Below are positions 33,456 to 37,355 of a stretch of DNA of 64,000 nt, piece after piece. The translations under genes and the position numbers were made by a program. A model generated the notes under the pieces. The model searched no databases. It worked only from the letters and a program-made list of their open reading frames with translations, and was not told the origin of the DNA. Each line of letters starts with the position of its first letter. The first letter of the stretch is position 1. This DNA is from Phycisphaeraceae bacterium (GTDB lineage: Bacteria; Planctomycetota; Phycisphaerae; Phycisphaerales; UBA1924), in contig JAHBXB010000001.1 of NCBI GenBank assembly GCA_019636655.1, forward strand, positions 1 to 64,000. Direction: 5' to 3'.

Positions 33456-34604
33456 CTACTCCCAGGCGACGAGCAGCTCGGGATTGTCGACCCAGGCCAC
33501 AAAGTAGGGATGCGCTGCGCCACGGCGGATCATGAGGATCGCAAACGGTCCGTCGCAGATCATCCGCTTGGGATCCCGCGGCATCGGTGCACTGGTAACA
33601 ACGCCGATCGCCGCCTCGCTCTTGAGCACGGCCCCACGTTCGTCGAGGCGGAACCGGATGTTCTGCATCGCCTCGTCGATTACCCCGCGGGTCGAGGTGC
33701 CGACGATCTCCCTCCCGATCAACTCATGAAAACTGCGGGTGATGTCGAAGTTGAGGAGCGGGACGATCAACACGTCATCGCTGCCAAACTGGATCGGCCT
33801 CGCGCCGGGATCCCCGCCGCCGGCTCCCTCGGACACGAGCGATCCGACGATACATGCAGCCGTGTCGGCCAGCGTGCCGCCGGGTTCAAGGCGCGCGAGC
33901 ACGAGCCGGTCGCCGGCGGAGGTGCTCTTGAGTTCGACGACCCAGTCGGTCGGTGAGTCGTAGCGGTGTACGATGATCTGGTCCGCGATCTTCGAGCGGT
34001 TCGGGAGATTACCGCCGCTCCAGAGCCCGAAGGAAGCGAGCCGTTTGTCATTGAAGACCAGGGGCACCGTGCGTCGCATGAACGGGTGAGCGAACGACAG
34101 GTTCTTGAAGAGATACGTGTACGCCAGGATGCGATCCGGTGGGATGCTCTCGGGGAGCATGCTCGGCGAGGCCGCTCCGCCGAACGTGTCGTTGAGTCGC
34201 GATCGGATTGCCCCGATGATGCCGTCGCGCCCGAACCCCGCCATGGCGACAAACGACGCCGAATCCAGGTCCGCGCGGCCCTGCGGAGCCCTGTTCAATA
34301 GCTCGACGATTGGGGGGTCGCCATCGACGTGGACCGGCGGTCCCATGACAGACACAAGCTCGTTCCATGCAAGCTGGAAGGTTGAGCACCAGAGCAGACT
34401 GGTGCCCGGCGCTTGAGGCTGGCTGAGCGTCGCCGCGACCACCGTGTGCTTGAGGTCCCCGTCGGCGTCCTTGGCAACGAGCGAGGGCCTGCCCAGAACG
34501 TCATCATGACTCCGGGGGGGATCGACCGAGCAGCCGATCGCGAGAACGGCCGCCGTGGCAACAACTGTGTGCATCACCCGGGTCGCGGCAGTTGTCATCA
34601 TCAT
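33456..34604 (-). CDS. Serpin-like lipoprotein
   Basis: 382 residues; lipobox AIGC with Cys25. The body shows serpin landmarks in order: a start helix LLWCSTFQLAWNEL; the sheet-C strands with VLIVPLLNFDITRSFHELIG; residues about 321-335 DERGAVLKSEAAIGV matching the reactive-loop hinge; a 12-15 residue loop with PMPRDPKR; and the C-terminal strands GPFAILMIRRG...YFVAWVDNP that align with the serpin FLFLIR...FMGRVVNP ending. The hinge has Val-Leu-Lys where inhibitory serpins prefer small residues, so it may be non-inhibitory. If exposed on the envelope it could trap or bind proteases. The assignment is from motif reading only. Confidence 0.6.
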   Translation of the reverse strand: MMMTTAATRVMHTVVATAAVLAIGCSVDPPRSHDDVLGRPSLVAKDADGDLKHTVVAATLSQPQAPGTSLLWCSTFQLAWNELVSVMGPPVHVDGDPPIVELLNRAPQGRADLDSASFVAMAGFGRDGIIGAIRSRLNDTFGGAASPSMLPESIPPDRILAYTYLFKNLSFAHPFMRRTVPLVFNDKRLASFGLWSGGNLPNRSKIADQIIVHRYDSPTDWVVELKSTSAGDRLVLARLEPGGTLADTAACIVGSLVSEGAGGGDPGARPIQFGSDDVLIVPLLNFDITRSFHELIGREIVGTSTRGVIDEAMQNIRFRLDERGAVLKSEAAIGVVTSAPMPRDPKRMICDGPFAILMIRRGAAHPYFVAWVDNPELLVAWE

Positions 34605-34631: not shown

Positions 34632-36647
34632 TCAGTCCCCCTGGTCGAGAACCGCCATGAACGCCTCCTGCGGGATCTCGACGCTGCCGATGGCCTTCAT
34701 CCGCTTCTTGCCCTCTTTCTGCTTCTCGAGGAGCTTCCGCTTGCGGCTGACGTCCCCGCCGTAGCACTTGGCGGTGACGTTCTTCCGGAAGGCCTTGATG
34801 GTCTCGCGGGCGATGATCTTGCCGCCGATGGCGGCCTGCACGGGGATCTCGAACTGGTGGCGGGGGATCTGCTCGCGGAGCTTGGAGACCAGGAGCCTGC
34901 CGCGGCGCTCGGCGTGATCGCGGTGGACGATGACCGAGAGCGCCTCCACGGGCTCACCGTTGACAAGGATGTCGAGCTTGACGAGGGTGTCCGAGCGGTA
35001 GCCGCCGTTCTCCGAGACCAGCTCGTAGTCCATGGTGCCGTAGCCGCTGGTGATGCTCTTGAGCTTGTCGTAGAAGTCGTAGATGATCTCCGCGAGGGGG
35101 ATCTCGAACGAGAGCATGTCCCGGGCGTCGGAAACAAACGTCTGGTGCTTGTAGACCCCCCGGCGCTCCAGGCACAGCTTCATGATGTCGCCGATGTAGT
35201 GCTTGGGCAGGATGATGTCGACGCGGCAGATCGGCTCGCGGATCTCGTCGATGAGCCCCGGATCGGGCAGGTCGGCGGGGTTGTGAACCTCCAGGAGCAG
35301 CCGGCCTTCCTTTAGGGTGGAGCCCGGCGTGCCTCCCTCCTCGAGAACGCGGATGTCCGAGGTGGCCCGCTTGCCGGACTTGAGTGTCGCCACGGTCGTG
35401 CGGGCGACGACGCGGTAGGAGACCGTGGGCGCGGTCTGCACGATCTCGACACCCCCCTCGCGCTCCAGCCGTTCCTGGACGATGTCCATGTGGAGCAGCC
35501 CGAGAAACCCGCAGCGGAACCCGAAGCCCAGAGCATCCGAGTGCACCGGCATGAACGTGAAACTCGAGTCGTTGAGCGACAGCTTCTCCATCGCCTCGCG
35601 GAGCTGCTCGAAGTCGTTGCCCTTCTGGTCCTCGGTGGTGGCGGGATAGAAGTCGCAGAAGACCATCTGCATCGGGGGCTTGTAGCCCGGGAGCGCCTCG
35701 CCGGCCGGGTCGTGCTCCAGCGTGATGGTGTCGCCGATCCGCACATCTTTCAGCGAGCGGATGGCCGCGACGACGTACCCGGTCTCGCCCGGAGATAGGG
35801 TCTGCACGCGGACCGGCTTGGGTGTGTACTTGCCGAGCTCAGTGATCTGGAACGTGCGGCCGGTCCCCATCATCCGGATCTTGTCGCCGACCTTGATGGC
35901 CCCGCCCTCCCCGTGCGTCCCTCCGTCGAAGACACGCACGTACACGATGACGCCGCGGTAGTCGTCGTACACCGCATCGAAGATCAGCCCACGCGTCTGG
36001 GTGACGACGGGCTTGCGCGGCGGGGGAAACTTCTCGCACACCGCGGCGAGCAGTTGAGCAATGCCGACGCCCGTCTTGGCGGACACGTAGATGCAGTCCT
36101 CCGCCGCGATTCCGAGCACCTGCTCGATCTCCATCGCCACCTCCTCGGGACGGGCGGAGGGGAGATCGATCTTGTTCACAACCGGGACGATCTTCAGATC
36201 TTCGTTGATCGCGAGGTAGGCGTTGACCACCGTCTGGGCCTGGACCCCCTGGGTGGCGTCGACGACCAGGATCGCCCCCTCGCAGGCCTTCAGGGCCCGC
36301 GAGACCTCGTAGTTGAAGTCCACGTGCCCCGGCGTATCGATGAAGTTGAGCATAAACAGCTCGCCCGCGGCGGCCGGGCCGGCCTCGTCCTCGCCGGCTG
36401 AGTCGCCGCCGGGGGCGGTGTCGGACCGGAGCTGGTCGCTCGTATCGCCGGGGGCGTGCCGGTGGAAGACCGTGACGGCCGAAGCCTTGATCGTGATGCC
36501 CCGCTCACGCTCGATGTCCATGGAATCGAGGATCTGCTCCTTCGCTTCTCGTGCTGAGACGGCATTGGTCGCTTGGAGGAGCCTGTCGGCCAGCGTGGAC
36601 TTGCCGTGGTCGATGTGCGCGATGATGGAGAAGTTACGGATCTGCAT
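34632..36647 (-). CDS. lepA: Elongation factor 4 (LepA)
   Basis: 671 residues from the ATG at 36647, where EF4 proteins begin (MQIRNFSIIAHIDHGKST); the ORF is open far upstream without support. GTPase motifs: G1 AHIDHGKS (10-17), G3 DTPGH (about 104-108), G4 NKID. The C-terminal LepA-specific domain is complete, with KCYGGDVSRKRKLLEKQKEGKKRMK. It promotes back-translocation/ribosome quality under stress. The loop between G2 (RERGITIKA) and the LNFIDTPGH strand is about 28 residues longer than in E. coli and is acidic/Gly/Ala-rich. The gene is divergent from gmhB-like 136 bp away. Confidence 0.97.
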   Translation of the reverse strand: MQIRNFSIIAHIDHGKSTLADRLLQATNAVSAREAKEQILDSMDIERERGITIKASAVTVFHRHAPGDTSDQLRSDTAPGGDSAGEDEAGPAAAGELFMLNFIDTPGHVDFNYEVSRALKACEGAILVVDATQGVQAQTVVNAYLAINEDLKIVPVVNKIDLPSARPEEVAMEIEQVLGIAAEDCIYVSAKTGVGIAQLLAAVCEKFPPPRKPVVTQTRGLIFDAVYDDYRGVIVYVRVFDGGTHGEGGAIKVGDKIRMMGTGRTFQITELGKYTPKPVRVQTLSPGETGYVVAAIRSLKDVRIGDTITLEHDPAGEALPGYKPPMQMVFCDFYPATTEDQKGNDFEQLREAMEKLSLNDSSFTFMPVHSDALGFGFRCGFLGLLHMDIVQERLEREGGVEIVQTAPTVSYRVVARTTVATLKSGKRATSDIRVLEEGGTPGSTLKEGRLLLEVHNPADLPDPGLIDEIREPICRVDIILPKHYIGDIMKLCLERRGVYKHQTFVSDARDMLSFEIPLAEIIYDFYDKLKSITSGYGTMDYELVSENGGYRSDTLVKLDILVNGEPVEALSVIVHRDHAERRGRLLVSKLREQIPRHQFEIPVQAAIGGKIIARETIKAFRKNVTAKCYGGDVSRKRKLLEKQKEGKKRMKAIGSVEIPQEAFMAVLDQGD

Positions 36648-36782
36648 GGGGGTGGAACCGGGGCCTCGGGAATGGGACAGTCGACAGGACGCGGGGGGGC
36701 CGGGGATGGTACGCGAGCGTGGGTCAGCCGCCGGCAAACGGAGCGGATTCCCGATGCGGCTCCCGTCGGAGTATCGTGGGGC

Positions 36783-37355
36783 ATGCGAAGAGCAGTGTTC
36801 CTGGACCGGGACGACACGTTGATCGCCACCCGGGAGGCCACCGCGGCGAGTACCCACCCGGGCGACCTCATCGATCCGGCTCTGGTTCGGCTGCTGCCGG
36901 GGGTCGCGGCGGGGTGTGAAAGGCTGCGAGAAGCCGGTCTGCTGCTCATCGTCATCAGCAACCAAGGGCTGGTCGCACGCGGCGTCGGGACCGTCGCAGA
37001 GGTCGATGCGGTCAATCGGCGAGTCAGGGAGTTGATCGAGCAGGGGGGGGGTCGGATCGATGCCACCTATTACTGTCCCTACCACCCAAAGGGGATCGTC
37101 CGCCCGTGGAACGTCGAGCATCCCTGGCGAAAGCCCGCGCCGGGCATGCTGCTCGAAGCGGCCGGCGATCTCGGCCTCGCAATCCCGCAGTGCTGGCTGA
37201 TCGGCGACTCCCCCCGCGATCGGGAAGCGGGCGTGGCCGCGGGGATGCCCGTGGAGCGAACGGTGCTGGTTGGAGAATCAGAGCGGTTCCGGTCCTTCGG
37301 TGAGGCGGCCGAGTGGGTCGCGTCGCAGGCGACCAGGGAGACGGAACCGGCCTGA
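36783..37355 (+). CDS. GmhB-like HAD phosphatase (heptose bisphosphate phosphatase)
   Basis: 190 residues from the ATG at 36783; TATCGT ends five bases before it and there is no Shine-Dalgarno. HAD motifs: DRDDTL (motif I), ISNQG (motif II), KPAPGM (motif III Lys) and GDSPRDREAG (motif IV). The middle CPYHP and the overall length fit D-glycero-D-manno-heptose 1,7-bisphosphate 7-phosphatase, but only one of the usual four zinc Cys is present (YYCPYHP, then HPWRKP instead of C-CRKP). The next gene is a heptosyltransferase, supporting an LPS-heptose role. Confidence 0.85.
   Translation: MRRAVFLDRDDTLIATREATAASTHPGDLIDPALVRLLPGVAAGCERLREAGLLLIVISNQGLVARGVGTVAEVDAVNRRVRELIEQGGGRIDATYYCPYHPKGIVRPWNVEHPWRKPAPGMLLEAAGDLGLAIPQCWLIGDSPRDREAGVAAGMPVERTVLVGESERFRSFGEAAEWVASQATRETEPA

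Follow-up and report, generated by a model that had tools for sequence, protein, structure and literature searches.

Does the serpin-like gene at positions 33,456 to 34,604 of the window (the whole 64,000-nucleotide stretch of DNA analysed here) encode a protease inhibitor, or is the serpin fold put to another use at the bacterial envelope? An earlier note, made from the sequence by eye, had described a divergent, envelope-anchored serpin with bulky hinge residues that might abolish inhibition. That observation is right and useful, and the protein is better described as belonging to a serpin-fold family that is reduced, probably non-inhibitory and in part fused to sigma factors. What the earlier note missed is the family itself, with its own hinge signature, its shortened core and its fusions to sigma factors.

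The gene and its genomic neighbourhood

The earlier note gave the coordinates of the gene correctly and left its strand unstated. The minus strand reads openly for 382 codons from an ATG start, and frame 1 of the plus strand contains three stops over the same bases (Table 1). Two genomes from the window organism's taxonomic family hold long homologues (52% and 49% identity), which indicates that this frame is a real gene. Given the 27-base gap to the upstream neighbour lepA, co-transcription with lepA is possible. This adjacency carries little meaning, since different genes lie within 1.5 kb of the copies in the two related genomes (by eye). No neighbour gene was conserved across the 48 loci at which we found relatives, the next largest clusters occurring at 4 of the 48. 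The serpin-like gene has a GC content of 0.648, the window 0.662 and lepA 0.659 (third positions, 0.812 versus 0.880), values that put no strong mark of foreign origin on the gene. The called lepA frame is longer than the protein, with approximately 155 extra residues ahead of the GTP-binding domain, and translation probably begins at the internal ATG of MQIRNFSIIAHIDHGKST.

Table 1. Features of the serpin-like gene and its neighbour in the window.
Feature	Position	Strand	Basis
Gene for divergent serpin-fold protein, 382 aa (P0001)	33456..34604	minus	open frame from ATG, homologues, model
Probable signal peptide, residues 1-25, ending in a lipobox-like AIG-C (Cys25)	34530..34604	minus	by eye; model helix 7-22
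Strand and helix, residues 69-85, with TFQLAWNE	34350..34400	minus	model secondary structure, conservation
Helix 129-141	34182..34220	minus	hhalign-aligned to canonical INxWVxxxTxGxI segment
Strand 159-170, s3A equivalent	34095..34130	minus	model, hhalign
Strand 313-321, s5A equivalent, Gln314 replacing the conserved serpin His	33642..33668	minus	model, hhalign, conservation
Hinge, residues 324-333 (P15-P6), GAVLKSEAAI; 324-329 predicted strand	33606..33635	minus	model, conservation
Reactive-loop equivalent, residues 334-346, variable, mostly low confidence, contains VTSAPMP	33567..33605	minus	model, conservation
Last strands s4B and s5B, residues 354-375 (FAILMIR ... YFVAWVDNP)	33480..33545	minus	Pfam, model, hhalign
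lepA (elongation factor 4)	34632..37121	minus	upstream neighbour, same strand, 27 bases from serpin-like gene

Kinship to serpins by sequence

All of the peptides that had been aligned by eye with serpins (DERG, AAIGV, PMPRDPKR, GPFAILMIR, FVAWVDNP and LLNFDITRSFHELIG) are present in the 382-residue translation. The Pfam Serpin model (PF00079) aligned its profile positions 300-370 (of 370) with residues 303-375 at a score of 16.5 bits and an E-value of 0.0053, which does not reach the gathering cut-off of 27 and agrees with the description of the protein as a divergent serpin. This C-terminal match is weak alone, yet it exceeds chance and becomes stronger when the family profile is used. The Pfam Serpin model searched against the window organism's own genome gave no match at E-values up to 0.001, which shows how far the window protein has diverged. 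NCBIfam gave no match for the window protein; among 39 family members it matched nine families, each in one member.

From the 48 loci found in a contig search, 38 relatives were aligned with the window protein (alignment A1, 39 rows); the A1 loci had been fetched with six patterns, the TFQLAWNE pattern among them. The A1 profile returned 55 matches among PDB sequences at E-values up to 10, and 54 of the 55 were serpins, although many of these are antitrypsin and PAI-1 variants and hence do not amount to 54 separate proofs. The best match was to Serpin-12 (E-value 1.5e-4, profile positions 119-357). Scanned singly, 22 of the 39 A1 members matched Pfam Serpin at E-values up to 1, the best at 2.5e-6.

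Canonical serpins above the Pfam cut-off are present in 11 of 163 genomes of the window organism's taxonomic family, and these 11 proteins (L008-L018) were aligned as A2. Comparison of A1 with A2 using hhalign gave an E-value of 5.5e-7 and a probability of 92.3 over 226 columns running from helix F to the C-terminus, with the N-terminal third outside the aligned region. The same comparison moves LLNFDITRSFHELIG, which the earlier note had assigned to sheet C. It follows P282, which aligns with the invariant Pro260 of canonical serpin L008, and in serpin anatomy this place corresponds to s6A leading into helix I.

Predicted fold and shortened core

The AlphaFold2 model of the window protein built with A1 has a mean pLDDT of 86.9 and a pTM of 0.83. 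Foldseek comparison of this model with the PDB gave a best E-value of 2.3e-8, and all 50 matches listed were serpins, with native and cleaved structures mixed in the top rows. TM-scores by query length were 0.31-0.47 and rmsd values 6.9-12.5 among the matches listed. The best VIA match was cleaved PAI-1 (Z 17.0, 271 residues, rmsd 4.6). Ten of the first 16 VIA rows are titled cleaved or loop-inserted and the native-titled rows have Z-scores of 14.6-15.5, with gaps under 1 counting as ties, such that the row order is merely suggestive. The three-sheet serpin fold that the earlier note expected of a predicted structure is present in the model. Together, Pfam, the family profile against the PDB, hhalign, Foldseek and VIA bear out the serpin relationship.

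The fold is reduced ahead of helix F. Residue 133 of the window protein aligns with residue 129 of L008 within helix F (hhalign), and Asn/Ser69 corresponds by eye to Asn20 of L008, before the first B strand. The span from Asn/Ser69 to helix F is 64 residues, compared with 109 in L008, or about 45 fewer. By these alignments the core shortening precedes helix F, and the missing residues belong to the region of helices C to E and strand s2A. An early reading of the model had helix F itself absent; hhalign ruled this out by placing helix 129-141 on the canonical INxWVxxxTxGxI segment, which we take to be helix F. We infer from the model that residues 69-85 are s6B and helix B.

The family has its own hinge signature

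To A1 we added 55 rows, giving a hinge sample of 94. The added rows derive from 73 frames, in loci found by genome searches, that cover most of the profile (frames covering less were dropped and are not counted among the 73), minus 16 already in A1 or in A3, the alignment used below to model a sigma-fused relative, and minus two identical rows. The family hinge follows the signature G-[AGV]-x-[LIV]-x-S-E-A-x-[IMV], as opposed to GTEAAAA in inhibitory serpins. Gly occupies P15 in 94 of 94 rows, A/G/V/I/M occupies P14 in 94 of 94, and L/V/I occupies P12 in 93 of 94; Ser is found at P10 in 90 of 94, Glu at P9 in 69 of 94, Ala at P8 in 72 of 94 and I/M/V/L at P6 in 79 of 92. Conserved positions (P14, P12, P10, P8 and P6) thus alternate with variable ones from P14 to P6, a strand-like pattern that speaks for insertion of the hinge, and of the variable P13, P11 and P7, the first two are mainly polar. 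P17 is Glu in 54 of the 94 rows. In the alignment of 11 canonical serpins, P12 and P10 are always Ala and P8 is always Thr. In PMC8233489, the inhibitory hinge is given as ExGTEAAAA from P17 to P9, with small residues at P12 to P9. The family departs from this pattern, with A/G/S/T throughout P12 to P9 in 0 of 94 rows, and the argument of the earlier note that bulky hinge residues speak against inhibition is upheld.

The hinge signature survives in rows gathered by whole-protein or profile search, unlike TFQLAWNE. That peptide, found in 39 of 39 rows of A1, had been considered as an invariant active motif, and was rejected, as the A1 loci were fetched with that very pattern and it varies elsewhere. 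The 55 rows not seeded by the motif have T75 in 44 (Ser in 10), F76 in 38, Q77 in 38, L78 in 42, A79 in 25, W80 in 54, N81 in 38 and E82 in 11 (Asp in 27). Cys73 of P0001, in the strand ahead of helix B, is conserved in 32 of 39 A1 rows and 46 of the 55 added rows.

A second departure lies in the s5A-like strand, where the conserved serpin His is replaced by Gln in 37 of 39 A1 rows and in 54 of the 55 rows not seeded by the motif. We take the shutter residues to be Ser53, Ser56, Asn186 and His334 of antitrypsin; of these four sites, that of His334 is the only one placeable residue by residue, and it is the one that carries this Gln.

The loop beyond P6 varies in both length and sequence across the family. 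The earlier note had hinted at a bait for trypsin-like enzymes from the Arg and Lys residues of the loop, a hint that the sequences do not support. Counting from Gly324 as P15, P1 would be Ser338, and the Arg/Lys residues at 343-347 come after it. Position 346 is basic across the family (R/K/H in 38 of 39 A1 rows; R/K in 46 of 53 rows not seeded by the motif) and therefore looks structural rather than bait. Loop length after the hinge Gly has a median of 25 and a range of 17-32 in the 92 of 94 rows measured by a rough rule, the loop ends being cut by a regular expression that is wrong in a few rows. Canonical relatives have loops of 26-30 residues (6 of 11 measured), so trapping is not precluded by length. 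The dipeptide SA is present in 19 of 94 family loops, against a shuffle mean of 7.8 and a maximum of 15; of the 11 canonical relatives, 7 have TSA at the corresponding place, and the loop of the window protein, IGVVTSAPMPRDP, closely resembles IGIRVTSAPMPEDP in canonical L012. By these resemblances the family loops keep a weak trace of the canonical bait.

Predicted insertion of the hinge into sheet A

The window model has a strand at residues 324-329 (P15-P10), straight after the s5A-like strand 313-321; residues 330-336 and 339-342 fall below a confidence of 50. The model of L063, a clostridial sigma-fused relative, was built from A3 and has a pTM of 0.56, a value that a flexible membrane segment between the domains may account for. 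In this model strand 469-482 is followed by strand 486-499 (P15-P2), with block confidences of 96 and 92. In the VIA alignments the L063 model, up to its residue 500, is matched with several antitrypsin and antichymotrypsin chains as far as their residue 358-360, which in that numbering is the end of the inserted loop. Among the 50 VIA matches listed for L063, 22 are titled cleaved and 4 are sigma factors; the cleaved chains end at the cut, which may favour their alignment.

AlphaFold kept antithrombin and its variants native despite experimental relaxed forms, according to PMC11226102, and a strand-like hinge prediction is thus not explained by such a native-state bias. From its place after s5A and from the matches to loop-inserted serpins, we infer that the predicted hinge strand lies within sheet A. 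The window protein and its family are most likely loop-inserted and non-inhibitory.

Probable envelope location and fusions to sigma factors

The window protein carries VLAIG-C ending at residue 25, with Ala at -3, which by eye resembles a lipobox. A simple pattern search found lipobox-like sites in several relatives. The lipoprotein proposed in the earlier note is plausible at the level of this motif, and from its N-terminal sequence the protein is probably surface-anchored through a lipid.

Several relatives, in clostridia and in planctomycetes, join the serpin-like domain to an ECF sigma factor. Pfam detected Sigma70_r2 and Sigma70_r4 in one frame with the serpin-like domain in L050, L052, L063, L068, L112, L114 and L116, and in the planctomycete fusions L075 and L078; a purpose-built sigma profile detected further in-frame fusions in L054, L064, L113 and L115. 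L102 was counted with L063 as a sigma-fusion entry. The L063 model runs from a sigma part (residues 1-172) through a helix (182-210), taken as a membrane segment, to the serpin-like domain, and its sigma part matches SigW with a VIA Z-score of 15.8. The clostridial and planctomycete fusions lie apart in the tree, where the starred branches force at least three changes; one old gain followed by repeated loss may be the alternative history.

In three other loci, all clostridial, the two parts are separate genes. At L117 (1420-3232, minus) a sigma gene overlaps the following serpin-like gene by 8 bases, and at L126 (1425-3117, minus) the overlap is 59 bases as called from the first start codon; the open frames of L127 (1504-3253, minus), a near-copy of L126, overlap likewise. 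The serpin-like proteins of L117 and L126 have a short N-terminal part, a hydrophobic stretch and an outer domain, and a sigma gene followed by an overlapping membrane-protein gene is the arrangement of sigma/anti-sigma operons, with the serpin-like gene in the anti-sigma position. Sigma-like frames are also found in the flanks of L029, L064, L091, L122, L125 and L136, none adjoining the serpin-like gene, and these flank frames were excluded from the sigma links. Most relatives are without sigma linkage, and the purpose-built profile found no sigma-like frame in the 64-kb window at an E-value of 1e-3. Other in-frame partners are HEAT repeats (L030), T2SSG (L044), DUF1559 (L082), DUF2950 (L074), CarboxypepD_reg (L108), Ig-like Big_14 (L125) and DUF3221 (L114; below the cut-off in L121).

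Distribution of the family

The serpin-like family is sporadic in distribution. A search of 61 genomes with the window protein matched five, of which four, including its own, hold the family; the match in G031 is a canonical serpin. Of 294 genomes of the phylum, the A1 profile matched 19 at E-values up to 0.001. In the taxonomic family of the genome carrying L063, matches were present in 40 of 117 genomes, some of them fragments. The labels on named records span ten phylum-level groups, and 7 of the 47 rows fall into none. Most records are metagenome bins, with Clostridium akagii, C. acidisoli and Youngiibacter fragilis as the isolates. A pattern scan of viral contigs gave two pattern matches and no relative, and tblastn against plasmids gave no match to the family.

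A 95-row tree places the window protein together with the two copies from within its taxonomic family (support 95). The description of the genome as planctomycete-like is plausible in that the nearest named rows of this tree are Planctomycetota, although in a smaller tree the sister bin is labelled Myxococcota.

Y. fragilis has two tandem copies (G472:C61:40796-42950; L100 and L109). The copies in the clostridial genomes G539, G514, G593 and G484 are broken by several stop codons, which suggests repeated loss. A DUF1287 gene lies near the serpin-like gene in C. acidisoli (L049:4090-4767 and L035:5944-6621), and C. akagii has a DUF1287-like gene split across two frames.

Discussion

On balance of this purely computational evidence, we consider it probable that the window protein is directed to the envelope and belongs to a branch of the serpin superfamily that is reduced and most likely non-inhibitory, and that it serves for binding or sensing. 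Its hinge, with part of the 'reactive loop', would lie in sheet A from the outset; with its loop pre-inserted the molecule would be in the relaxed form, and protease trapping would be impossible. What would be left, outside the cytoplasmic membrane, is a stable serpin-fold domain for binding or sensing. In some clostridia and planctomycetes this module forms the outer portion of a sigma factor tethered to the membrane, or stands in the anti-sigma position, and these sigma-linked members would probably relay signals from the envelope to transcription. The copy of the window organism would be a free, probably lipid-anchored protein; as the window holds no sigma gene, a ligand-binding or envelope-stress role for this copy is extrapolated. 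Common to the family are a domain on the outer face, carried by varied anchors, a strand-built hinge and the loss of the inhibitory consensus; these fit a non-inhibitory binding or sensing scaffold, and the sigma linkage supports signalling for part of the family.

A more specific proposal, possible and clearly less probable, is transmembrane signalling, in which the outer serpin-fold domain and a tethered ECF sigma factor would report envelope proteolysis or a ligand through insertion or release of the hinge strand, the window protein being the lipoprotein version. It is unlikely that the family acts as a one-shot protease sensor, in which an exposed loop would be cut, the hinge would snap into sheet A and the change would be relayed across the membrane, to the sigma factor in fused relatives. 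A hinge conserved as an insertable strand, a long and variable loop and sigma fusions in two phyla would suit such a sensor, and AlphaFold may depict its end state; however, the bulky P12 should slow insertion, the bait is not conserved, a transmission path is not evident and a signalling partner is absent for most members.

We rate lower still the chance that the protein, for all its unusual hinge, is a functional protease-inhibiting serpin shielding the envelope. The bulky P12, the Glu at P9 and the absence of an all-small P12 to P9, together with Gln in place of the conserved His, the loss of about 45 core residues and the strand-like hinge of the models, all argue against it, despite a loop of about normal length, the likeness of the window loop to that of L012, the enrichment of SA in family loops and the retention of P15 Gly in every row and of P17 Glu in over half. 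That the protein is no serpin at all, with a convergent C-terminal match and a loose fold call, is highly improbable: the Pfam score below cut-off, the range of Foldseek TM-scores and rmsd values and the hhalign alignment that stops short of the N-terminal third could be read that way, but sequence and fold searches return serpins almost exclusively, in the same order along the chain.

The non-inhibitory binding or sensing module that we favour can be set beside several known systems. Canonical bacterial serpins (PF00079; L008-L018, miropin 5nct and the prokaryotic serpin 1mtp) have their elements in the same order between helix F and the last strands, and their DE-x-G ahead of the hinge and D-x-P-F are also in the window protein; the latter differs in its score under the Pfam cut-off, its approximately 45 fewer residues before helix F, its Gln for the conserved His, its bulky P12 and its Ser at P10. 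In ECF sigma/transmembrane anti-sigma pairs of the SigW-RsiW type the sigma factor resembles that of L063, and the gene order is like that of L117 and L126. In our family, by comparison, the outer part is a serpin-fold domain, and sigma factor, membrane helix and domain are often in one chain.

Ovalbumin and HSP47 are non-inhibitory serpins. The hormone-binding globulins likewise put the scaffold to non-inhibitory use and are a precedent for ligand binding, which they achieve by exploiting the stressed-to-relaxed change, as set out in PMC8233489. The present family differs from them in being bacterial and envelope-directed, with a reduced core and a loop predicted to be inserted from the outset, and so would be without that change. 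The Streptomyces Group U serpins have an altered breach and shutter, and their authors suggest that they may be non-inhibitory (Spence et al. 2021, PMC8233489). As that paper describes them, Group U serpins are still similar to other serpins by BLAST, and the hinge consensus is intact in many of them, whereas the window family has lost this consensus and is weakly found by Pfam. Neither the family nor its sigma fusion was found described in the titles and abstract openings of the papers listed, drawn mostly from outside subscription journals.

If our interpretation is true, the family would be a concrete bacterial use of the serpin fold beyond inhibition, linked to sigma factors in two phyla, and would supply a natural serpin whose loop is a fixed strand, apparently built relaxed. 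It is a distant branch in which to ask how the metastable trap arose or was lost.
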